This document shows positions 4,354 to 23,353 of a stretch of 35,070 nucleotides of DNA, piece by piece (position 1 is the stretch's first letter; each line of letters opens with the position of its first letter). A program made the translations under genes and the position numbers. Origin of the DNA: a virus; the IMG/VR virus record IMGVR_UViG_3300031857_000664, positions 1 through 35,070 of that record; one strand, written 5' to 3'. The notes beneath the pieces are model-generated. The model was not told the origin of the DNA and searched no databases. It saw only the letters and a program-made list of their open reading frames with translations.

Positions 4354-7300
4354 TGAGCTGCCCTGATGTGGTGCGGGTGACGGTCCCGAGCGGACCGGCG
4401 GCGGTGCGGGTGGTGACGCCTGGGCCTGCGGGTGCGCCGGGTGCGGCTGGGCCTGCGGGCGCTGCCGGGCCGGCTGGCCCTGCGATCGAGCTGCGGGTCA
4501 GCAGCGGGCAGGTGCAGTGGCGGGTGGTCGGCGGCACCACCTGGACGAACCTGATTGCGACGGCGGACCTGGCTGGCCCTGCGGGTCCTGCAGGTGCTGC
4601 TGGTCCCCAGGGCCCGGCCGGTCCTGCCGGTGCCACCGGCGCAACGGGTCCGGCGGGGCCTGCTGGCGCGGCCGGTGCTGATGGCCCTGCCGGTGCCGCT
4701 GGCGCCAATGGCCGCGAGGTGGAGCTCCAGGCCGGCGCGACCCACGTGCAGTGGCGCTACGCCGGAGACGCCAGCTGGACGAACCTCGTCAGCCTGGCCT
4801 CACTGACCGGCCCCGTTGGCCCGCAGGGTGCGACTGGTCCGCAGGGGCCCCAGGGCGCGACCGGTGCGACGGGTCCGCAGGGCGCCACCGGCCCCCAGGG
4901 TGCGACGGGCCCCCAGGGGCCGTCGGGTGTGGCCAATGCCACCGCGCCGATCACCTACGACGCCGGCACGAAGACCGTTGGCATCAACGTCGGCCAGACC
5001 GCCGGCACTGTGGCCGCTGGCGACGACAGCCGCTTCGCTGAGCTGAAGGCCCGGCTCGATGCCTTCCGCGATGCGGCCACCTTCTACGTCAGCAAGGGCG
5101 GCAGCAACACCAACAACGGCACCAGCCCCGGCGAACCGTTCCTGACGATCGGCGCAGCGGTGACCGCCGCCAACGTCTACGTCACGGCCAACGCCGGCGC
5201 CAAGGCCAAGATCCTCGTCGGCCCCGGCGAGTTCGTGGAGGCGTCCCTGCCGTTCCGGCTCAAGCCCAACATCCTCGCCCAGGGTGCGCTGCAGCGGGGC
5301 ACCACCATCAAGCCCGCGAGCGGTCAGGAGCTGAACGGCTTCTGGGCGCTGGATTCCGGTTGCATGGTGGCGGACTTCACCCACAGCGGCCATCAGGCCA
5401 CCGGCACCAGCTCGACGGACTCCACGGTGGGGACACGGGCCTGGGCGGTGCGGCTGAACGAGGCCGCTAACGGCGGGGCGGGCGTGTTCCTGACCGCCAG
5501 CCCCTACGTCAAGGACTGCGCCTCGATCACCGCCGAGGATGACGCCGGCCTGGCCGGCAGCACCAGCACCGGCGACACCGGCGGCGGCGTGCTGGTCGAT
5601 GGTGCGGCTTGCCGGAGCGATTCCCCGATCCGCAGCCTGCTGGTCTACGGCTTCACCCAGCAGAACCTGGGCGGCCCCGGCGCGGTCGTTCGGAACGACG
5701 GCTATGCCGAGCTGGTCAGCTTCTTCGGGCTGTTCGGCACCTGGCACGTCCAGTGCGAGACCGGCGGCCAGGCGACCCTGAGCGGCGGCGGTGCCAGCGA
5801 GTTCGGCATCTACGGCCTGGTGGCCGATGGCTACAGCACCACGGCCCTGTTCACCGGCTCCCTGCGGGTAGCGGCCTCGTCCGGCGCCCTGACGGTGGAT
5901 GTGGTGAGCCTGAGTGCCAACCGGCTGGGCAGCAGCAGCCGCCCGGCGGCGGGCCAGATCCTGTTACTCGGCGGCAACCCCTACGTCATCCAGTCGAGCA
6001 CCCCGATCGACGCCAGCGGCACGATCGTCACCGACACCGCCCCCACACGGGCCGGCTACCGGGTGACGTTCTTCAACCCCTCGGGCAGCGGCCTGGCGGC
6101 CAACGTGTCCCAGGGCGCTACAGCGGACTTCCGCCAGCGGTCGCAGATCAGCGCCGGCTGCCACAGCGCCAACTACGTCGGCGCCGGCACCAACTACTCA
6201 GCACTCCCCTGGAACGGTGGCGTGCCGATCCGCGGCAACGAAGCGGTCGAGCGCAACCTGGGGCGGGTCTTCGGCCTGATCGTCAACGATGTCGGTGACG
6301 TGAAGGTGGCCGGCGGCGCCTTCGCGGTGGATGGCACCACCGGCGCGGTCACGATCAACACCAGCCAGTTCAACCTCAGCGGGCTCAACGCCGTGGGTCC
6401 GTTCTCACGCAACGGCGGAGCCTCGACGGTGGGGGTGCAGCTCCAGGAGGTCTCGAACAGCACCAGCTTGCTGGCCAGCACCGGCGTCTCTGCCGCCGAC
6501 ACCGCCCCGACCCAGTTCGCGGTCCGCACCTACTCCGACAACCGCTACCTGGCGGGCCTGAGCGTCACCGCCAGTCAGCCGATCAGCATCTCTGACACCA
6601 GCACCCAGGACGGCTCCGGCTTCTGGACCCGCAGCCGCAATGTCGAGCTGACGCTGAACGCCCCCAACGGTCTGGCCCGGCTGGACGGCAGCGGCCTGAT
6701 CCCCTCGACGCTGCTGCCCAGCTACGTCGATGACGTGATCGAGGCGGCCAACCTCGCGGCGTTTTCGGGCACTGGCGAGACCGGGAAAATCTACGTCGCC
6801 CTCGACACCGGCAAGACCTACCGCTGGTCCGGTTCGGCCTACGTCGAAATCTCCGCCAGCCCCGGCAGTACGGATGCCGTCAGCGAGGGCAGCGTCAACC
6901 TCTATTTCACGACCGCCCGCGCCCGGCAGTCGATCAGCGCCGGGGGATCGCTCGACTACAACCCCACCACCGGCGTCGTCAGCTACACCGCGCCCACCCT
7001 CGGCACCGCTGCACCCCTAGACGTGGCCGCCACGGGCGACGCCAGCAGCGCCCAGGTGGTCAAGGGCAGCGACACCCGCCTGAGCGACGCCCGCGAGTGG
7101 TCGGCCCCCACCGTCATCCAAGCCGACGCCGAAGCCGGCACCGCCACCGATCGCCGCGCCTGGACGGTGCAGCGGGTCTGGCAGGCGATCGCCGCCTGGT
7201 GGGCCGCCAGCAGCGCGAAAACCAAGCTGGACGGCATCGCCACCGGCGCCACGGCGAACCAGACCGACGCCCACCTGCTCAGCCGCGCCAACCACACCGG

Positions 7301-12695: not shown

Positions 12696-13916
12696 TCACC
12701 CCTGCCGCTCCCTGGCCAGCCGGCTCGCCTTCGCCATCAGGTCTGGGAGCGCCAGCCTGCGGCCATAGGTGGCCACGTGGGTAGCTGGGCTGTGACCCAT
12801 CAGCTCGGCAGCCTCCCGGTAGTTCAGACCGATCTCTGCCAGGCGGATGGCGAACGCATGACGCGGGGCGTAGGAGCTGAGCCCCTCGGGCATGAGCAGC
12901 CGGCCCAGCTGCTGTGTCAACGACTGCCCCGGCGAGCGGTGGCGCAGCAGGCCAGGCGGCAGGCCGTGGCGGTGCCAGCGGTCCAGCAGGCCGTGGCAGT
13001 CCGCAGGCCAGCCCGCAGGCGGCACGGCGGGGACGGTGCGGGCGCCGGAGGTGCCCCTGCTGCTGCGCTTGCTGCGGGTGACGGTGGCGACGAGGGTGCC
13101 GTCCTGCTGCTGCAGTTCCAGGCCCTGTAGCTCGACCGGTCGCAGGCCGAACACCACGATCAGGTCCCAGGCGAGGAGGTCGCTGGCGGTGAGCTGACGG
13201 CTCGCGGTGATCCGCTCGCGCAGGGTGGCGATCTCGGCGTCGGTCATGGCCCGGGCCCCAGCGGGGTGCGCGGCGGCCTTGCCGTTGCCCCGCATGGCGG
13301 CCACCACCTCCGGCCAGGGCCAGCCGGCATGACGCCAGAGGGCGCGGGCTCGATCGTGGGCCATCTGCCGGGCGCGGGAGTTGGGCGGCCAGCGGCGCAG
13401 CAGACGGGCCAGCATCGCCGGGGTGGGCTCCCCCGGGGTCTCACCCGCGGTGGCCACCACGGCGCTCAGGTACGGGGCCCAGGTGCGGTCCCACGTCCCC
13501 TGGGTCATGCGCTCGCCCACCAGCTGGTCGCGCAGGCCGGCGATCAGCCGCTCGAGGTTGGCGGGGCTGGCTGGGTCGGTGGTGCCCTCGGGCCGGGCGT
13601 CGTCGGGGCCGGGCCAGGTGAAGGTGCCGGCCATCACGCGATCGAACACGTCGCACGCTTCCGCCAGGGCGGACGTGATGGTGGCGGGCCCCGGTGGTGC
13701 CCTCAGGATCAGCGACCTGGCGCGGGTGGAGGTGGCAGTCTCACCCGGCCGTGGCGGGAGCTCAGTGCTAGTGACCCGCAGCCGATCGCGGTTCAACTGG
13801 ATGAACCAGCCCTGCCGGCCTTGACGGTGCGCACGGAAGCCGGCCGAGAGGGTGAGCAGCCACGGCGGGGAGGGCACGCGTAAACCGGGCGTAAACGGAG
13901 GGCGATTCTGGGCCAT
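12696..13916 (-). CDS. int: Tyrosine-family site-specific integrase
   Basis: The protein has 406 residues if it starts at 13916. The frame is open to 14033, but that extension enters the attP core, so the internal ATG is preferred. The C-terminal catalytic domain is clear. The first Arg is in VVFGLRPVEL, and the second Arg with His is in SSYAPRHAFAIRLAEIGLNY. The final His is in ELMGHSP, and the nucleophile Tyr is in ATYGR. The N-terminal ~250 residues include a core-binding-type helical region (ATITSALAEACDVFDRVMAG). It would recombine attP (13878-14126), which lies just upstream of the gene, with a host tRNA-Val gene. Confidence 0.9.
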   Translation of the reverse strand: MAQNRPPFTPGLRVPSPPWLLTLSAGFRAHRQGRQGWFIQLNRDRLRVTSTELPPRPGETATSTRARSLILRAPPGPATITSALAEACDVFDRVMAGTFTWPGPDDARPEGTTDPASPANLERLIAGLRDQLVGERMTQGTWDRTWAPYLSAVVATAGETPGEPTPAMLARLLRRWPPNSRARQMAHDRARALWRHAGWPWPEVVAAMRGNGKAAAHPAGARAMTDAEIATLRERITASRQLTASDLLAWDLIVVFGLRPVELQGLELQQQDGTLVATVTRSKRSSRGTSGARTVPAVPPAGWPADCHGLLDRWHRHGLPPGLLRHRSPGQSLTQQLGRLLMPEGLSSYAPRHAFAIRLAEIGLNYREAAELMGHSPATHVATYGRRLALPDLMAKASRLARERQG

Positions 13917-13920
13917 TAGG

Positions 13921-13950
13921 GGCCCATCGGTACCCATCGGCACCCATCGG
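13921..13950. repeat. Three tandem 10-bp repeats (NNCCCATCGG)
   Basis: The copies are GGCCCATCGG, TACCCATCGG and CACCCATCGG, directly in tandem between the left arm sites and the attP core, just upstream of the integrase start. They may bind an accessory recombination factor or a repressor of int. Confidence 0.65.
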
Positions 13951-14004
13951 AGGGAGGGGCAGAAACCAGGCCAGAACTGGCTCAGGGACTGCGGTGGAAG
14001 GGAT

Positions 14005-14050
14005 GCGCGATGCCGGGTTCGAACCAGCGACATCCTGCTTGTAAGGCGGG
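14005..14050 (-). other. attP core: 3' half of a tRNA-Val(UAC)
   Basis: On the minus strand the sequence shows a 3' anticodon arm with loop CTTACAA (anticodon UAC), then variable loop ATGTC, then a T-arm GCTGG-TTCGAAC-CCGGC, then the acceptor strand ATCGCGC. The 5' half (acceptor and D-arm) is absent, so it is not a tRNA gene. The 5' side of the anticodon stem has one mismatch (CCCGC opposite GCAGG), which suggests that identity to the host tRNA begins near the loop. Confidence 0.75.
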
Positions 14051-15029: not shown

Positions 15030-15267
15030 CCCGCCATTCCCCACGCGCCAGCCGCTCTGCCGCCCGCTTCCGCTCGATCTCGGCCCGCTCAGCCGGTGTC
15101 GGCAGCACCGGCCCCGGTCCAGGCGCCGCCACCTCGCAGGCAGCCTCCTGCACCCGCAGCAGCGCTTCCGTCAGCTTGGCCCGGTCGAAGCGCAGGGCCA
15201 GCAGCTCCCCGGCCAGGCGCTGCAGGTCGGCGGGGTGGGCGAGGAGGGAGGGAGGGACGGTGATCAT
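15016..15267 (-). CDS. Small helical hypothetical protein
   Basis: The 83-residue protein starts with an ATG that overlaps the dCTP deaminase stop by 1 base (TGATG). It is mainly helical (LQRLAGELLALRFDRAKLTE, then AEIERKRAAERLARGEWRV). Coupling to dcd may mean a related nucleotide or replication role, but the sequence itself is not informative. Confidence 0.6.
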   Translation of the reverse strand: MITVPPSLLAHPADLQRLAGELLALRFDRAKLTEALLRVQEAACEVAAPGPGPVLPTPAERAEIERKRAAERLARGEWRVSLD

Positions 15268-15788
15268 CAGCCCCGGCTCCCGGCCACTGTCAGGCAGCCG
15301 TTGTACCTGCCAGTCAGCGAGTAGTCCCGCAGTGGCACGTCGTCCATCCGGTGGCAGATCAGCTGCCCGATCTTCATGCTGGGCCACAGGGCCACGGGGT
15401 GCAGCTGGCGGCTGTTGTGGAGCTCCAGCGTCAGGACGCTGCCGTTGAAGCCCGGATCCGCGAACCCGGCCATCAGATGCTCTATCCCCTCGCGGGCGCG
15501 GCTGGACTTCAGCGCGAACTGGATCGCCACGTCTGAGGGGACGTTGAAGGTCTCCAGCGTCTCCCCCAGCACGAACTGAGAGGGCTGCAGCCAGTACGGC
15601 GCCTCCTGGCTGTGGGGCGCCAGGTCATAGGGCACCAGCTCCCGCGAGGTGGCCGACTCGATCAGCAGCCGGGGGCCCAGGCGCACGTCGATGCTGGCCG
15701 GGTTCAGCAGGGCCTCATCGAACGGCGCGAGCATCGGCCTCTCGCCGCTGCAGAGGGCGCGGATCTGGAAGTCGCAGAGGATGCCCAT
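15267..15788 (-). CDS. dcd: dCTP deaminase (possibly dCTP deaminase/dUTPase)
   Basis: The protein has 173 residues, near the family length. It deaminates dCTP to dUTP for thymidylate supply. Conserved motifs are present: LKSSRAREG (residues 93-101), DPGFNG (111-116), TLELHN with the presumed catalytic Glu122, and MKIGQL (138-143). A trimeric dUTPase-like jelly roll is expected. Whether it also hydrolyses dUTP cannot be decided by eye. A GGAAGC-type promoter (15810-15835) lies just upstream and the following gene overlaps, so it heads a small transcription unit inside the larger leftward cluster. Confidence 0.9.
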   Translation of the reverse strand: MGILCDFQIRALCSGERPMLAPFDEALLNPASIDVRLGPRLLIESATSRELVPYDLAPHSQEAPYWLQPSQFVLGETLETFNVPSDVAIQFALKSSRAREGIEHLMAGFADPGFNGSVLTLELHNSRQLHPVALWPSMKIGQLICHRMDDVPLRDYSLTGRYNGCLTVAGSRG

Positions 15789-16139: not shown

Positions 16140-16433
16140 TCAGGCGGCGGTCTGTCCCAGGTTGCCGCTGGCCTGGCACCGCCGAGCCTCCAGGCAGGCC
16201 CGCTGAAACCGGCACGTCTGGCAGGCGGGTCTGGCCTCCAGTAGCTCGGCGTAGGCCAGGGTGCCCACCTGCCAGCCGGCGAGCCGCATGGCGGTGGCCC
16301 ACTCGTGCGCCAGCTGCCCATCGGCGCGGGACCAGGCCACCACGCGACCGCAGTGGGTGAAGGCGACGAGGCAGGCCCTGGGGCCCGCCAGGAGGCTGCT
16401 GCCGGTTGGCAAGCGGAGCGGATCACGCCGCAT
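16140..16433 (-). CDS. Protein with C-terminal four-cysteine cluster
   Basis: The 97-residue product has a globular part (VAFTHCGRVVAWSRADGQLA) and a C-terminal cysteine set CQTCRFQRACLEARRC (C-x2-C-x5-C-x5-C). Such sets bind zinc or an Fe-S cluster and occur at the ends of Cas4-like nucleases, but the nuclease motifs are not seen here. The start at 16433 overlaps the preceding gene by 11 bp. Its role is unknown. Confidence 0.55.
   Translation of the reverse strand: MRRDPLRLPTGSSLLAGPRACLVAFTHCGRVVAWSRADGQLAHEWATAMRLAGWQVGTLAYAELLEARPACQTCRFQRACLEARRCQASGNLGQTAA
16159..16168 (-). promoter_or_regulatory. CGGMAACCT box, 20 nt before the start at 16138
   Basis: The minus-strand sequence is GCGGCAACCT in a CCAG/CTGG hairpin. 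It lies inside the coding end of the upstream gene, which weakens a purely regulatory reading. Confidence 0.35.
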
Positions 16434-16968
16434 GGCTGCCCTCCTGCTGGTCCTGCTCCGCCCGGCCCACGGGGCTGAGCCCATCGCCGGCCTCACGCCA
16501 GGCGGGATGCCAGGGCGGCCGGTAGCCGACGGGGCCCTGGATCACCTCCGGCCACGTGATGCGCCGGCGCTCCAGGCCAGCGTTGAAGTCATGGCCGCTG
16601 TCCACCAGCCGATCGAAGGCGAGAACCATCAGCCGGGCTTTCTCGCGGCTGGCCGGGGTGCCGAGACCACCAGCAGCGTCGGGATCATCGCCGGACTGCA
16701 GGGCGGCCCACTGGTCTGGGTAGGCCGCGATCCACTCGCGGGCCAGGTTGCGGACCGGGTGGCTGGTGCCGGCCCCGGGGTAGGCCATGGCGGGCCGTTC
16801 GTGCGGCTCCCAGGGCGGCCTGCGGTTGTCGGGGCGGAATGATGCCAGGCGGTCGTTCTCCACGCCCCCAGCGGCCTCAGAGGGGCGATCCAGCTGCTCC
16901 AGGGTCCACAGACCCCGAACCACGCCCCGAGCCAGCTGCAGGCCCGCCAGCGCTTCGGTGGGGGTCAT
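16423..16968 (-). CDS. Hypothetical protein of the replication operon
   Basis: The 181-residue protein starts in an ATGA overlap with the preceding gene. It begins with a helical segment (PTEALAGLQLARGVVRGLWT). A middle part has many W, P and D residues (REWIAAYPDQWAALQSGDDP) and a further helix (ARLMVLAFDRLVDSGHDFNA). No motif was recognised. Its place two genes after the initiator suggests a helper in replication. Confidence 0.55.
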   Translation of the reverse strand: MTPTEALAGLQLARGVVRGLWTLEQLDRPSEAAGGVENDRLASFRPDNRRPPWEPHERPAMAYPGAGTSHPVRNLAREWIAAYPDQWAALQSGDDPDAAGGLGTPASREKARLMVLAFDRLVDSGHDFNAGLERRRITWPEVIQGPVGYRPPWHPAWREAGDGLSPVGRAEQDQQEGSHAA

Positions 16969-17387
16969 GCGCCCTCCGGCAGCTGGAACAGGCGGTTGAG
17001 GCCTTCGATCGCGGCGGCGTCACCGCTGGGCTGGTCGGGTTCGCCCCGCAGGTAGGGCGCTGCTGGCTGCGGGTGGAACACGTCGGGCCGGGCCATGCGC
17101 TCCGCCAGGTCCGGCTTCAGGCCCCAGGCGTAGTTCGGCTGGCCGTTCTCGCAGCGGTACAGGTACCGCAACAGTGCCAGGAACACAGGCAGTTCACGGG
17201 GCCGCTCGGGGTCGAGCACGTACTGCCCAGCGGCGTAGGTCCAGTGAGCGTTACCGAGCTCCCGCTTCGCCTGAGCTGGAACGGTCTGCCAGGCCAGCAG
17301 GGCACCGGCGGCGCCGAGCTGCTTGGCGAAGGGGAGGGTTTCCGCAATCCCCTGCAGGGTGCGGAGGAAGTGCTGTTGGTCAAGCAT
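16965..17387 (-). CDS. Replication-operon protein, possible helicase-loader partner
   Basis: The product has 140 residues and starts at 17387, overlapping the initiator gene by 8 bp. It is mainly helical (MLDQQHFLRTLQGIAETLPF, then ELPVFLALLRYLYRCENGQP). Phages with an O-like initiator often carry a loader or adapter next, and the position is right, but there is no Walker motif, so it is not a DnaC-type ATPase. A GGAAGC promoter-like sequence lies in the initiator gene at 17524-17552 on the same strand. Confidence 0.55.
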   Translation of the reverse strand: MLDQQHFLRTLQGIAETLPFAKQLGAAGALLAWQTVPAQAKRELGNAHWTYAAGQYVLDPERPRELPVFLALLRYLYRCENGQPNYAWGLKPDLAERMARPDVFHPQPAAPYLRGEPDQPSGDAAAIEGLNRLFQLPEGA

Positions 17388-18366
17388 GGGCGAGGCTCTC
17401 CCAGTCGGATGGTTGGGTGGTGGTGCTGAGGGCGCCCTGGCCGGGTGCCGCGAACTCGGGGTCTGCGACGGCCAGGAAGGCGAGGAGATCGTTGATCTCC
17501 GCGTCCTTGCGGTCCCGGGTGGAACGGTAGCCGCCTCCGCTTCCATTTCCAACCTGGAGCGCAGCGGGTCGCCCGTACTCGAGCCAGCGGTCGAAGGTGA
17601 TGCCGGCCCAGCGGCGGCCGATCTCATCGGCGGTGATGGCCTTCTGGAGCTGCGCCCGGATCGCCTCGATCCCGCCCCGGGCATCAGCCTGGATCTTGCC
17701 CAGCTCGGTCAGCTGGACGGAGAGGGCGCGCTGGGTCCGCTTGCCGCCCTTGTGGTGGTTCCACCAGGTGCAGAACAGCTCGGCCACGGGCGCCAGGTCG
17801 GCGGGGACGTCGGCGGGGCTGAGCTTGACCTTGCCGGTGGATGCCCCTGCCCCCTCGTCCGGCGCAGCCGGCGCTGTGGCGATCGGTTCGGGCTGGGGGG
17901 TAGGGGGGTCTAAGGCTTCTTGTTCAAGGCCTCTTGTTAAAGGCTTCTTGTTCGTAGCCCCTTTTGGGGGAGGGGTGGGGTCCCCCATTTGGGGGAGGGG
18001 TGTGGTCCCCCGTTTGGGGGTACCCCCATCTGGGGGAGGGGTCCCCCGTTTGGGGGAGGGGTTCTCGGTGCGGACGTGGAAGATCGAGGTAGCGCCGGGC
18101 CTGTCTTCGCGGGTGACCCAGCCCTCGGTGGTGAGCCACTTGAGGGCCTGCCGGACGTCATCGCGCTTCATCCGGCACTCCAGCGCCAGGCGATCGAGCG
18201 AGGGCCAGGCGGCGTCATCGCGGCCGGCGTAGTGCCAGAGCCAGGCGTAGACAAACAGGGTGCCCTTGCGTTCGGCGCACTGTTCCACCAGGTCGAGCGA
18301 GAGCATCACGAACGGCCGGCGGGTCAACCGATCCCCGCCCTTGGCCGCTCCGCTGTCAGTTGGCAT
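17380..18366 (-). CDS. Lambda-O-like replication initiator with winged-helix domain
   Basis: The product has 328 residues. The ATG at 18366 is supported by AGGAG 9 nt upstream. Residues about 20-90 form a winged helix-turn-helix of the type in phage initiators (LFVYAWLWHYAGRDDAAWPS, LDRLALECRMKRDDVRQALK, WLTTEGWVTRE). Residues ~95-150 are a Pro/Gly/Lys/Arg repeat encoded by the iterons. The C-terminal part includes LFCTWWNHHKGGKRTQRALS and ITFDRWLEYGRP, which could contact the helicase or loader. It heads the leftward operon, and the iterons and AT-rich repeats (17912-18061) lie within the gene. That layout is known from lambda O. It would bind its own gene to start phage replication. Confidence 0.75.
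   Translation of the reverse strand: MPTDSGAAKGGDRLTRRPFVMLSLDLVEQCAERKGTLFVYAWLWHYAGRDDAAWPSLDRLALECRMKRDDVRQALKWLTTEGWVTREDRPGATSIFHVRTENPSPKRGTPPPDGGTPKRGTTPLPQMGDPTPPPKGATNKKPLTRGLEQEALDPPTPQPEPIATAPAAPDEGAGASTGKVKLSPADVPADLAPVAELFCTWWNHHKGGKRTQRALSVQLTELGKIQADARGGIEAIRAQLQKAITADEIGRRWAGITFDRWLEYGRPAALQVGNGSGGGYRSTRDRKDAEINDLLAFLAVADPEFAAPGQGALSTTTQPSDWESLAHA
17524..17552 (-). promoter_or_regulatory. GGAAGC-type promoter candidate inside the initiator gene
   Basis: On the minus strand TTGGAA, GGAAGC and TACCGT appear with a 17-nt spacer between -35 and -10. It would serve the genes from 17387 leftward. It lies in coding sequence, so confidence is low. Confidence 0.3.
17912..18061. other. 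Putative phage replication origin (3 tandem 14-mers plus 5 palindromic iterons)
   Basis: Three tandem 14-mers, AAGGCTTCTTGTTC at 17912, AAGGCCTCTTGTTA at 17926 and AAGGCTTCTTGTTC at 17940, have 6 G+C of 14, much lower than the surroundings. They adjoin five copies of CCCCC-N4-GGGGG, of which four continue as AGGGG, at 17958, 17982, 18007, 18023 and 18043. The first copy has one C fewer. An AT-richer tandem repeat beside initiator-binding palindromes is the usual form of an origin. The G-runs could also form G-quadruplexes. Confidence 0.7.
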
Positions 18367-18439
18367 GTAAAGTGCTCCTGTGATTGGTCTGTGAATCAGG
18401 GATTCCGCCGTCCCGGCCTTGCAGGGCTTGAGGACGGCA

Positions 18440-18465
18440 GCCGGGGGAAACCCCGGCTTTTTTTT
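18440..18465 (+). terminator. Strong rho-independent terminator, rightward
   Basis: The stem is GCCGGGG/CCCCGGC with loop GAAA, followed by eight T. It faces right although the gene to its left is transcribed leftward, so it would end a short RNA that begins near the initiator start. A GCCGTCC/GGACGGC pair flanks the preceding 30 nt. Confidence 0.8.
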
Positions 18466-18497
18466 GCGTCGCTGCAGTCCGCAGCAGGCCGCACCGT

Positions 18498-19792: not shown

Positions 19793-20307
19793 TGTCGAGC
19801 CCCAGGATTGCATCGATCGATGCCATGTCCCTCTACAAGGGACAGACCATCCCCGCCGATCAGGCGTGGACCTACTTCATCACCCGCCGGCAAGAGACCT
19901 ACCAGGGCTGGCTGACCCAGCACGGTGACGAGGAGACCGCGAAGGCGGCCCGCCTGTCGCTTGTGTTGCAGCGGGTGATCCAGTGGCTGGAGCGCGACCG
20001 CAACCAAGCGGGGCTGCCGCCGCTGGTGATGAACACCTCCGGTGGTTGCATCAACGTGCTGACCGATGACAAGGCGAGCGCCTACCTGAACGATCAGGCC
20101 TTCTCTGGCCTGCGTCGTCACCAGCGGGCCACTGGCCGACTGGTCAACGCGGTTGACGAATCGAAGCTCACCGGTGCCGCCCGGCGGGAGCACCAGAACA
20201 GGATCAACGTTCACAGTTTCATCGCGGCCTCGGCCCAGGGCGCACAGAAGCAGCTCCGGCTGTTGAAGCGTGCCGGCAAGCAGGCGCCGAAGCTGGAGGG
20301 GAGCTGA
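19792..20307 (+). CDS. Hypothetical partner of the preceding gene
   Basis: The 171-residue protein begins at the TGATG overlap. It is mostly helical: ADQAWTYFITRRQETYQGWL, KAARLSLVLQRVIQWLERDR, and a basic C-terminal half with AARREHQNRINVHSFIAASA and KQLRLLKRAGKQAPK. The basic tail suggests nucleic-acid contact. No family was recognised. The stop overlaps a following ATG (20307) whose frame runs into the hairpin array and is not credible as protein. Confidence 0.6.
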   Translation: MSSPRIASIDAMSLYKGQTIPADQAWTYFITRRQETYQGWLTQHGDEETAKAARLSLVLQRVIQWLERDRNQAGLPPLVMNTSGGCINVLTDDKASAYLNDQAFSGLRRHQRATGRLVNAVDESKLTGAARREHQNRINVHSFIAASAQGAQKQLRLLKRAGKQAPKLEGS

Positions 20308-20308
20308 T

Positions 20309-20882
20309 GGCCTGGGCATCCGTCAGGTGTAAGCCCCAGGCCGCCGCGCCCCGCGCCCCGTCTCAATGCCCCGCGCCCCGTCTCAATGCCCTGCGACACC
20401 GCGCCGCGCGACGCCTTGCCTTGCGACGCACTCCACAGGGGGGCCCTCCGGGGGCCCGCCCACCCCAGCCCGCAGCCACCGGCTGCCTGGTGGGGTGACT
20501 CACCACGACGCCGCGCCTCGCCACGATCGCGCCGCTTCGCTGAGCCGCGCAGCGCAACGCACACCACAGGGGCCCCTCACGGGGCCCACAACCCACCCTC
20601 CGACCTATGGTCTGACGGTGGGCTGATGCCCACCACTCCGCGCCGCCGTGCTGCGCTTTGCTTCTCACCGCCACTCTGCGCCCAGCGTCCCTGCGCCGCT
20701 CGACGCAACGCACACCACGGGGGGCCTCAATCGAGGCCCCACACCCCACCGCTGAGGGCTCCTCTCCGGTGGGTTGACCCACCACCGGCGCATCGCACCG
20801 CTTTGCTCCGCATTGCTCCCCCCAGCCATGCTCCGCTGCGCATCGCCGCCCGCCGCGACTCACCGCACAGGGCCTTCCGGCC
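20309..20882 (+). repeat. Array of four three-hairpin modules with variable C-rich tracts
   Basis: The junction unit consists of H-a (CACCACRGGGGCC, loop, GGCCCC), a small hairpin H-b and H-c (GGTGGG-YTGAY-CCCACC). H-a copies lie at 20441-20457, 20570-20587, 20721-20740 and 20871-20882. H-b copies are GCAGCC/GGCTGC (20472), GACC/GGTC (20602) and GAGG/CCTC (20754). H-c copies lie at 20489-20504, 20617-20634 and 20768-20783. Variable tracts of ~55-90 nt separate the units. No gene in any frame is credible here. The region from 20883 to 21030 holds no further unit that I can see, only the leader of the next gene. Confidence 0.65.
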
Positions 20883-21030
20883 ACCACCGACCCGGCACCC
20901 CCGGGGCTTTCGTTTGGCAACCGAACCGCCCCACGCAGCACTCTGCACCGTTCTGCACCACCCCGCACCGTTCTGGGATCTTCCGGCCCCATCCGGCTAC
21001 CGTGCGGGCACCACCACCAACCACCGCCCC

Positions 21031-21795
21031 ATGGGCCCTGCCCCCGACCTGGATCGTCAGATCCCCAGTCGCCGCCACGATCGCGGAAGGAGCCACATGG
21101 CAGCCGTGGTGAACACCTGGCTCGGCCGCGCGGGCCTCTCACATGACCAGGTGGCGGCCATCACCGACTGGGCTCTGCGCGAGTCCGGGTTCCTCGGCAG
21201 CAGCCAGCTCAGCCACCTGCGGAACGCCAAGGTTACCCGCCCGGGGCTGATGCTGTTCGAGGCTCTGTCAGCCCTCAACGCCGCGATCTGGCGCTGGCAG
21301 ACCCAGGGTGAAGCCCGCTGCATCGAGGAGTACGGGCCCTACTCCAGCCACGGTGTGCAGCCGGAGTGGCTGACCGATGCCGTCTGGTTGCCCCACCCGG
21401 ATCACCCGGTTGACCCCTTGTGCTTCGGCGACTTCGTGGAGCTGTTCGCCGGGTATCTCGTCTTGCCCGACGTCGCGGTCAAGCTCTCGCAGTTCGATGG
21501 CCCGGACCTGAGCCGCCGCCTGTCAACCCTCCTGCTGGAGCACTGGCAGACGGCTGGCTGGGGGCCGGGGGAGGGCATGGCGCGGATCCTGGAGGCCTAC
21601 CCCAACGACGACGCGGAGGCCAGGACCCGGCTCACGATGCTGTGCCTGGGGCAGATGGATTGGACCTCAGAGGAGTTCGAGGCTGAGATCCCGGACCTGG
21701 CTGCACTGGTGGAGTGTCTGCGGAGTCTGCCGACTGGGAGCTACGGCCCCGCCGAATTGCACGCCGAGTTGACCAGCGGGCGCCGTCGAGCCTGA
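21031..21795 (+). CDS. Putative phage regulator with helix-turn-helix-like N-terminus
   Basis: The frame from 21031 gives 254 residues and follows a GCACCACCACCAACCACC leader. An inner ATG at 21097 has a strong ribosome site (GGAAGGAG) and would give 232 residues, so both starts are possible. Residues after the inner start (WLGRAGLSHDQVAAITDWAL, then GFLGSSQLSHLRNAKVTRPG) look like an XRE-type helix-turn-helix that ends in a dimer region (LFEALSALNAAIWRW). The C-terminal half is helical and acidic. Its place between the hairpin array and the recombination genes suggests a regulator of the early region. Confidence 0.6.
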   Translation: MGPAPDLDRQIPSRRHDRGRSHMAAVVNTWLGRAGLSHDQVAAITDWALRESGFLGSSQLSHLRNAKVTRPGLMLFEALSALNAAIWRWQTQGEARCIEEYGPYSSHGVQPEWLTDAVWLPHPDHPVDPLCFGDFVELFAGYLVLPDVAVKLSQFDGPDLSRRLSTLLLEHWQTAGWGPGEGMARILEAYPNDDAEARTRLTMLCLGQMDWTSEEFEAEIPDLAALVECLRSLPTGSYGPAELHAELTSGRRRA

Positions 21796-22036: not shown

Positions 22037-22066
22037 TTGGAAACGGCCAAGCTGGCGCGGTAGGAT
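22037..22066 (+). promoter_or_regulatory. Promoter for the erf-ssb-rusA genes
   Basis: TTGGAA, then an 18-nt spacer, then TAGGAT, 47 nt before the erf ATG. The stretch from 21796 to 22112 otherwise contains only a run of ten C (near 21950-21959) and no clear plus-strand gene. Confidence 0.5.
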
Positions 22067-22112
22067 GGGCCAGCGACCCGACAGGGGCGCCGCACCACCA
22101 TCAACCACCGTC

Positions 22113-22865
22113 ATGCCTACCGCCTCCCCGGCGCCGGACCCACAACTGGCGCTCTATCAGGCCCTCGCCGCGTTCCAGGGCGAGGCCGCCGGTGTCCCGA
22201 AGGACGCCCGCAACCCTCACTTCAAGAACACCTACGCCACCCTGGCGTCCGTGATCGAGGCCGTGCGTCCGGCCACTGCCCACGGACTGAGCCACGCCCA
22301 GACCTTTGAGCAGACGGCCGACGGGGCCACCCTGCTGGTCACCACCATCCACCACGCGGCCGGCTCGAGCATCCGCAGCACCCTGCCGATCGGGTTCACC
22401 GCCGACTGGCAGAAGAACGGCAGCGCGATCACCTACGCCCGCCGCTACAGCCTGCTGGCCGCCTACGGTCTGGCCCCGGATGACGACGACGACGGCAACA
22501 GCGCCGCGCCAGCCCCGACCCGCACCGCTGCCCGCAACGGCAACGGCGCCCCGCCCCGCGACGATCGCGCCATCGCTGCCGCCACCGCCCGCAAGGCCCT
22601 GGCTGCTGCTGGCCTGACCCGCGAGGGTGCCCAGGCGATGCTGGCCGAGCTGGCGCCTCCCGGTGTCCACCGCCTCGATGATCTGCCGCTGGCGATCCTC
22701 AAGCGCCTGGGCCACCAGGGCGCGTCCGATGCCGAGATCGCTCGCTGGAATGGCGCCGCCATGCCTGCCGCTGCTCCGCTTGCCAACCAGGAGCAGGGTG
22801 AGGAGTTTGACCCCGAGGATCCGCCGATCCACTGGGAGCAGCCCACGGTCGCTGGCGCCGCCTGA
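22113..22865 (+). CDS. erf: ERF-family single-strand annealing protein
   Basis: The product has 250 residues. The ERF core is clear: AFQGEAAGVPKDARNPHFKN, then YATLASVIEAVRPATAHGLS, then ITYARRYSLLAAYGLAPDDD. The C-terminal third is variable and helical. Such proteins form rings and anneal complementary single strands in phage recombination. It starts at 22113 after the leader CGCACCACCATCAACCACCGTC without a Shine-Dalgarno. SSB and RusA follow, which gives an annealing, strand protection and junction resolution set. Confidence 0.9.
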   Translation: MPTASPAPDPQLALYQALAAFQGEAAGVPKDARNPHFKNTYATLASVIEAVRPATAHGLSHAQTFEQTADGATLLVTTIHHAAGSSIRSTLPIGFTADWQKNGSAITYARRYSLLAAYGLAPDDDDDGNSAAPAPTRTAARNGNGAPPRDDRAIAAATARKALAAAGLTREGAQAMLAELAPPGVHRLDDLPLAILKRLGHQGASDAEIARWNGAAMPAAAPLANQEQGEEFDPEDPPIHWEQPTVAGAA

Positions 22866-22918: not shown

Positions 22919-23353
22919 ATGTCACAACTCGCTGCCGACGTCTTCCGCTCGGCTCAGTTCACCTTCATCGGTCGCACCGGCCGCGACTCCGACCTCAAGA
23001 CCTTCGACAACGGCGGATCCAAGGCCAAGAACCGCATCGCCATCAACCAGGGCAAGGATCAGGAGTCGATCTGGTTCTCAGTCGAAGCCTGGGACGAAGC
23101 CGCCATGGTGCTGGCCGACGTGCAGAAAGGCCAGATGATCCGCGTCACCGGCCGCGTCGCCGTCGAGCGTTACCAGAAGCGCAACGGCGAGGAGGCCACG
23201 GACAACGTGATCAAGGCGTCGGCGGTCGAGGTGCTCCCCTCCCGTGGTGGCGACCGCCAGCCGGCTCCCGCTCGTGGAGGTGGCCGGCAGCCGGCGCAGG
23301 CCTGGAACTCCTCAGCTCAGGAATCCTTCGACGGCGATGACATTCCGTTCTGA
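22919..23353 (+). CDS. ssb: Single-stranded DNA-binding protein
   Basis: The 144-residue protein has an N-terminal OB fold (about residues 8-105: AQFTFIGRTGRDSDLKTFDN, then IWFSVEAWDEAAMVLADVQK and GQMIRVTGRVAVERYQKRNG). A Gly/Arg/Pro/Gln-rich linker follows, and the acidic tail ends in DGDDIPF, the tip that recruits partner proteins. It protects single strands in replication and works beside Erf. The stop is shared with the next ATG (TGATG). Confidence 0.95.
   Translation: MSQLAADVFRSAQFTFIGRTGRDSDLKTFDNGGSKAKNRIAINQGKDQESIWFSVEAWDEAAMVLADVQKGQMIRVTGRVAVERYQKRNGEEATDNVIKASAVEVLPSRGGDRQPAPARGGGRQPAQAWNSSAQESFDGDDIPF

Follow-up and report, generated by a model that had tools for sequence, protein, structure and literature searches.

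A probable lambda-type replication origin inside the O-like initiator gene of a temperate cyanophage

The window, by which we mean the whole stretch of DNA that was analysed, is 35,070 bases long and covers positions 1 to 35,070 of the IMG/VR virus record IMGVR_UViG_3300031857_000664. Since genes for an integrase, a dCTP deaminase, an ERF annealing protein and an SSB were located in it (Table 1), the phage, a virus of picocyanobacteria, is judged from its gene content to be temperate, with ERF-type recombination. The locus described here comprises a gene for a lambda O-like replication initiator, two sets of repeats within that gene and a small partner gene that overlaps the initiator gene by 8 nt. 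No DnaB-type helicase gene was identified near the initiator gene, and an Rfam scan and a tRNA scan of the window gave no matches.

Table 1. Coordinates (in the window) of the features of the initiator locus and of other phage genes; iteron sequences are given in gene sense.
Feature	Position	Strand	Basis or remark
Integrase gene	12696-14033		
dCTP deaminase gene	15267-15788		
Partner gene, 140 aa, candidate helicase loader (P/G39P-like)	16965-17387	minus	position, predicted fold
Replication initiator (lambda O-like), 328 aa	17380-18366	minus	HTH_36, PHROG matches, relatives
Helical C-terminal domain, residues 183-265	17572-17820	minus	high-pLDDT helices; constant in natural recombinants
Disordered linker, residues about 101-180, holds all origin repeats	17827-18066	minus	pLDDT about 50 throughout
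Tandem 14-mers, three copies with an AACAAGA core, probable DNA unwinding element	17912-17953	minus	Tandem Repeats Finder
Iteron 5, degenerate, CCCCCAAAAGGGGC (GCCCCTTTTGGGGG at 17957)	17957-17970	minus	
Iteron 4, CCCCCAAATGGGGG	17982-17995	minus	exact CCCCC-N4-GGGGG
Iteron 3, CCCCCAAACGGGGG	18007-18020	minus	exact CCCCC-N4-GGGGG
Iteron 2, CCCCCAGATGGGGG	18023-18036	minus	exact CCCCC-N4-GGGGG
Iteron 1, CCCCCAAACGGGGG	18043-18056	minus	exact CCCCC-N4-GGGGG
Winged-helix (wHTH) DNA-binding domain, residues about 20-100	18067-18309	minus	AlphaFold2, Foldseek
Weak candidate antisense -10 box TAAAGT, pO-like, abutting start codon	18368-18373	plus	4/6 matches
Intrinsic terminator, OOP tO-like	18439-18465	plus (antisense to initiator)	strong
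ERF annealing protein gene	22065-22865		
SSB gene	22919-23353		

The initiator was matched by the Pfam helix-turn-helix family HTH_36 (1.6e-6) and by PHROG 'replication initiation' families, several of them O-like, the matches including PHROG 270 (4.8e-13) and the O-like PHROG 391 (2.8e-8). PHROGs 391, 678 and 345 are common to the window initiator and lambda O. The direct profile comparison with lambda O using hhalign was weak (E 3e-4, probability 39%), and Pfam PF04492 (Phage_rep_O), which lambda O matches at 5.7e-36, did not match the initiator. An AlphaFold2 model built on 22 relatives places a winged-helix domain in the N-terminal part of this phage replication initiator, with the order helix-helix-helix-strand-strand and a pLDDT above 90 in its best part; Foldseek matches of the domain were mostly winged-helix proteins, none with E <= 0.001. 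The linker that follows is rich in proline, lysine and glycine, and the C-terminal domain would be expected to contact the partner or the helicase. A sequence-only reading of this DNA had placed the repeats inside a gene for a winged-helix initiator, and the HTH_36 match, the PHROG annotation and the model all bear this out.

In gene direction the winged helix is followed by five palindromes, three 14-mers and the helical C-terminal domain. Inverted-repeat iterons are thereby present inside the gene between its DNA-binding and C-terminal domains, and an A+T-rich stretch, A-rich on the coding strand, lies directly 3' of them. The palindrome array (17957-18056) had been described as five copies of CCCCC-N4-GGGGG(AGGGG); four of these are exact, the fifth is a degenerate site, and AGGGG follows four of the five, the exception being the copy at 18007. 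Only two matches to the iteron with one mismatch were found elsewhere in the 35 kb. The three adjoining tandem 14-mers of lower G+C were as that reading had described them: Tandem Repeats Finder reported a period of 14 and 3.0 copies for 17912-17953. The stretch has a lag-14 identity of 0.77 and an AT skew of 0.38. The G+C content of this stretch is about 44%, against about 69-70% for the gene, and just 0.03% of the 45-nt segments of the record are as low. The gene may tolerate repeats at this place because what they encode is a flexible linker joining two domains.

Relatives of the initiator were found by sequence scans at 47 viral loci and, as prophage-like copies, in host genomes, namely one Synechococcaceae MAG plus six more genomes belonging to that family group. 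The plan of winged helix, palindromic iterons, A-rich stretch, C-terminal domain and small partner gene is kept in about 40 relatives, and nearly all relatives retain it. The sequence-only reading had named loss of the iterons from relatives that retain the protein as evidence against it; the relatives keep palindromic iterons. In about 37 of 41 genes, the 45-nt stretch where the gene's G+C is lowest directly follows the iterons and is A-rich on the coding strand. The best repeat lag of this stretch is 14 or 15 in most cyanophage clades, the 14-nt periodicity, taken by itself, being significant only in some clades; in lambda and other enterobacterial phages a 14/15-nt periodicity was suggestive (HK97, p=0.053) and not significant.

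The arms of the iterons vary by clade with palindromy kept: CCCCC/GGGGG in the window, GGGGC/GCCCC in L065, GTACC/GGTAC in L055, GTGCA/TGCAC in L072, GTGCG/CGCAC in L059, GTTCAC/GTGAAC in L090 and GCTCA/TGAGC in L091. An AAAA centre is found in the iterons of many relatives and likewise in those of lambda, HK97, mEp237 and MPK9. To judge from these sequences, the conserved property is dyad symmetry, place and an A-rich neighbour, not G-runs. In the annotated isolate Cyanophage KBS-S-2A, a 33% identical relative (CPKG_00028, HQ634187), annotated as a hypothetical protein only, has palindromic iterons and an A-rich, 15-nt-periodic stretch in the same places as the window, and differs in the iterons themselves (CCCC-A5-GGGG and CCCCC-A4-GGTGG) and in the unwinding repeats, AATAAAAACCCAGTA.

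A search anchored on the downstream partner gene, and so without selection for the peptides that the iterons encode, recovered initiators whose winged helices are unrelated. Among the natural recombinants, L072 and L023 share about 98% DNA identity from nt 534 onward, whereas before nt 534 their winged helices and iterons are unrelated. The differences between L021 and L024 lie mainly over the winged helix plus the iterons, and L065 departs from L058 and L018 in its winged helix and iterons but carries the same three AACAAGA repeats and a largely shared or similar 3' part. A finer change was seen in L090 and L091, which come from a single host genome (contigs C85 and C39) and whose proteins are nearly the same outside the linker. 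Here, a few residue changes in and around the recognition helix are accompanied by changes in both arms of every iteron (GTTCAC..GTGAAC in L090 and GCTCAC..GTGAGC in L091), and the pair may represent a natural specificity switch, perhaps linked to prophage coexistence. These sequence comparisons are most simply explained if the iterons are bound by the winged helix and the two are exchanged as one unit. The 14-mers travelled with the 3' part in L065 and in L021/L024, but not in L072, and their linkage to the 3' part is less certain for that reason.

In most viral loci the initiator is immediately followed by a relative of the partner gene; the same holds in host genomes, where these relatives occur with any of three winged-helix types. 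The partner had no match in Pfam or PHROG, hhalign found no sequence relation between the partner family and lambda P, and a profile search of PDB sequences with the family returned nothing meaningful. The predicted model (pLDDT 80) had no significant Foldseek match in the PDB; the best of three VIA-align matches listed, a weak one, was to SPP1 G39P (1no1_A, Z 4.5, 67/67 target residues, 3.0 A), and a weak match to a viral G39P-N was obtained from BFVD (prob 0.57). Based on the G39P match and the position of the gene, the partner is predicted with moderate confidence to be a helicase loader. The next gene (16423-16968, minus strand) is unannotated, and its relatives follow the same cassette in some phages (L021 and L024-L028).

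The arrangement was compared with those of known origins. In lambda, O dimers bind iterons that are almost perfect inverted repeats (PMC5043065), and they open a neighbouring A+T-rich stretch (PMC5043065; PMC7466680). The O/P region with ori-lambda (NC_001416) and the window have in common an origin, putative in the window, within the initiator gene, a partner gene directly downstream, an N-terminal DNA-binding domain, iterons that are inverted repeats centred on an A-tract, an A-rich one-strand-biased stretch, a C-terminal domain, and, at the gene start, an antisense terminator and -10 box (pO/tO, OOP), the box being a weak candidate in the window. The earlier suggestion of a lambda O-like plan, with iterons within the initiator's own gene, thus gains from the shared order and from its retention in relatives. 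Palindromy had been taken as a departure from lambda and is not one, as the lambda iterons are also inverted repeats. Differences do exist: the window has five CCCCC/GGGGG iterons where lambda has four CCCTC/GAGGG iterons, its genome is high in G+C with an unwinding stretch of regular AACAAGA 14-mers, its partner has no sequence match to P, its initiator falls outside Pfam Phage_rep_O, and its upstream neighbour genes are divergent with no cII seen. In Bacillus phage SPP1, oriL lies within gene 38, which encodes the origin-binding protein, and the helicase loader is the product of the next gene, gene 39 (PMC6316719). A DUE, probable in the window, adjoins the repeats in both, and the next gene, with a few-base overlap, encodes a small helicase loader, a candidate in our case (PMC6316719). 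SPP1 differs in the direct repeats of oriL, in having a second origin and in its own DnaB-type helicase gene 40, which comes next.

Other explanations for the repeats were weighed against this background. One possibility is that they merely reflect selection, acting on the protein, for a low-complexity proline/glycine/lysine linker. The linker is disordered, its composition is biased, and such a peptide alone raises palindrome counts: with synonymous-codon shuffling at a fixed protein sequence as the null model, looser palindrome counts in the gene were not above the shuffles, because a linker of this composition favours C and G runs. Since palindrome counts do not discriminate, codon phase and exact repeats were used instead. 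Codon phases at the repeat starts are 1,0,1,2,0 for the iterons and 0,2,1 for the 14-mers, so that both sets occupy all three reading frames and are DNA features, not protein repeats. At least four exact CCCCCN4GGGGG sites arose in just 11 of 20,000 synonymous shuffles, and two 14-nt-spaced AACAAGA pairs in none of 20,000. The initiator gene contains 20 out-of-frame repeated 10-mers, above every synonymous shuffle (mean 0.7, maximum 6, in 300 shuffles). Such repetition far exceeds the shuffles also in most relatives and in lambda O, whereas of ten control genes from the window nine stayed within their shuffle levels and only the integrase gene went beyond them, scoring 6 where its shuffles reached at most 4. 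An origin of the repeats in the peptide is therefore extremely improbable.

It is also very unlikely that the G-runs serve as quadruplexes or RNA hairpins controlling transcription or translation of the gene. G5-A-G4-T-G4 is present on the plus strand of the array and the palindromes could form hairpins, yet several relatives keep the array without G-runs (arms GTACC, GTGCA, GTTCAC, GCTCA), and palindromy, place and the A-rich neighbour are what relatives keep. The G-quadruplexes raised as a possibility in the sequence-only reading were rejected, as the G-runs are clade-specific (relatives use GGGGC and other arms besides those just listed) and quadruplexes are thus not needed. If the palindromes were operator or incompatibility sites for autorepression or copy counting, with replication starting elsewhere, they would likewise be bound by a winged-helix dimer, and neither the HTH_36 nor the GntR-like matches are specific to initiators. 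We nevertheless consider this unlikely, since the array is situated some 300 nt into the gene, away from the promoter, the lowest-G+C stretch of the gene follows it in nearly all relatives, a conserved partner gene comes next, and the plan equals that of the proven lambda origin (PMC5043065). RK2-like plasmids also have tandem sites next to 13-14-nt DUE repeats (PMC5043065), and the plan could point to a plasmid iteron-type origin, with monomeric Rep on direct repeats, instead of the lambda type. This deserves hardly any credence, given that the window iterons are inverted repeats, as expected for dimers, that the protein matches are to phage O-like families and not to Rep families, and that the genome carries integrase, ERF and SSB genes.

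A lambda-type theta-replication origin inside the O-like initiator gene of a temperate cyanophage is in our view very probable, on account of the PHROG matches, the lambda-like anatomy in order and orientation, the out-of-frame repeats in three frames, the conservation of the plan with co-variation of the arms, the recombinants in which winged helix and iterons are co-exchanged, and the linked partner gene. By analogy with lambda, binding by the initiator, melting, helicase loading and origin activity may be pictured as follows. Initiator dimers would bind the five CCCCC-A-rich-GGGGG palindromes (17957-18056) via the winged helix, and the DNA would be wrapped into a nucleoprotein complex that would melt the adjacent low-G+C 14-mers (17912-17953). 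The C-terminal domain and the product of the next gene, the candidate loader, would then deliver the replicative helicase of the host to the strand so opened.

A description of a replication origin for these temperate phages of picocyanobacteria was not found in the open-access papers searched. In this family, DNA-binding domains and their matched iterons form a natural series that extends to nearly identical proteins with differing sites, and this makes initiator specificity and prophage compatibility directly testable. The results further suggest that the plan seen in lambda (O-ori-partner, and perhaps OOP as well) extends beyond enterobacterial phages, and a candidate helicase loader family without database annotation is now named.

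An antisense unit at the start of the initiator gene (18368-18465, plus strand) was also noted as a possible OOP-like RNA common to lambda and many cyanophage relatives (L013-L072, L009, L010). In the window, the antisense terminator and the start codon of the initiator are about 75-100 nt apart, with the terminator upstream. Such a terminator was found 51-99 nt upstream of the start in 19 of 29 genes, lambda included, against a background of 0.063 per kb, a count that is inflated by relatedness. The corresponding -10 boxes of relatives read TAGAAT, TACAAT or TAAAAT, and boxes with at least 5/6 matches at the start codon were present in 13 of 28 genes, again inflated by relatedness, compared with 2.0% of 5,179 background ATGs. 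No -35 was found for the box in the window. The putative RNA (18376-18466) has a folding z of -3.75, which comes largely from the terminator stem and a neighbouring hairpin. From the sequence features, an OOP-like antisense RNA unit is possible and is best treated as a lead.

A broader proposal, to which we give somewhat less than even chances when its parts are taken jointly, is that the winged helix and iterons make up an exchangeable specificity cassette placed before a 3' part and partner gene that are largely constant. Constant machinery (the C-terminal domain, the G39P-like loader or the helicase) would perhaps read the 14/15-nt A-rich repeats. A pO/OOP-like antisense unit would overlap the initiator start in cyanophages as in lambda, so that the whole ori-lambda regulatory plan might, under the same proposal, be shared across phages of different bacterial phyla.

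A change of GC skew near 18.0 kb had been suggested as a check on the origin. The skew of the window does change sign near 18.5 kb; since this point is a cumulative maximum and coincides with the flip of gene orientation, which confounds the measure, GC skew was rejected as an origin mark and is uninformative here. Elsewhere in the window, short tandem repeats were observed at 20307-21050 (a 20-nt unit at 20348 and 10-nt units at 20789 and 20942) without a convincing gene. Collagen-like repeats with 9/18/27-nt periods are present at 4401-4927, near the start of a gene for a 1155-aa product that is probably a tail fibre or tail protein.
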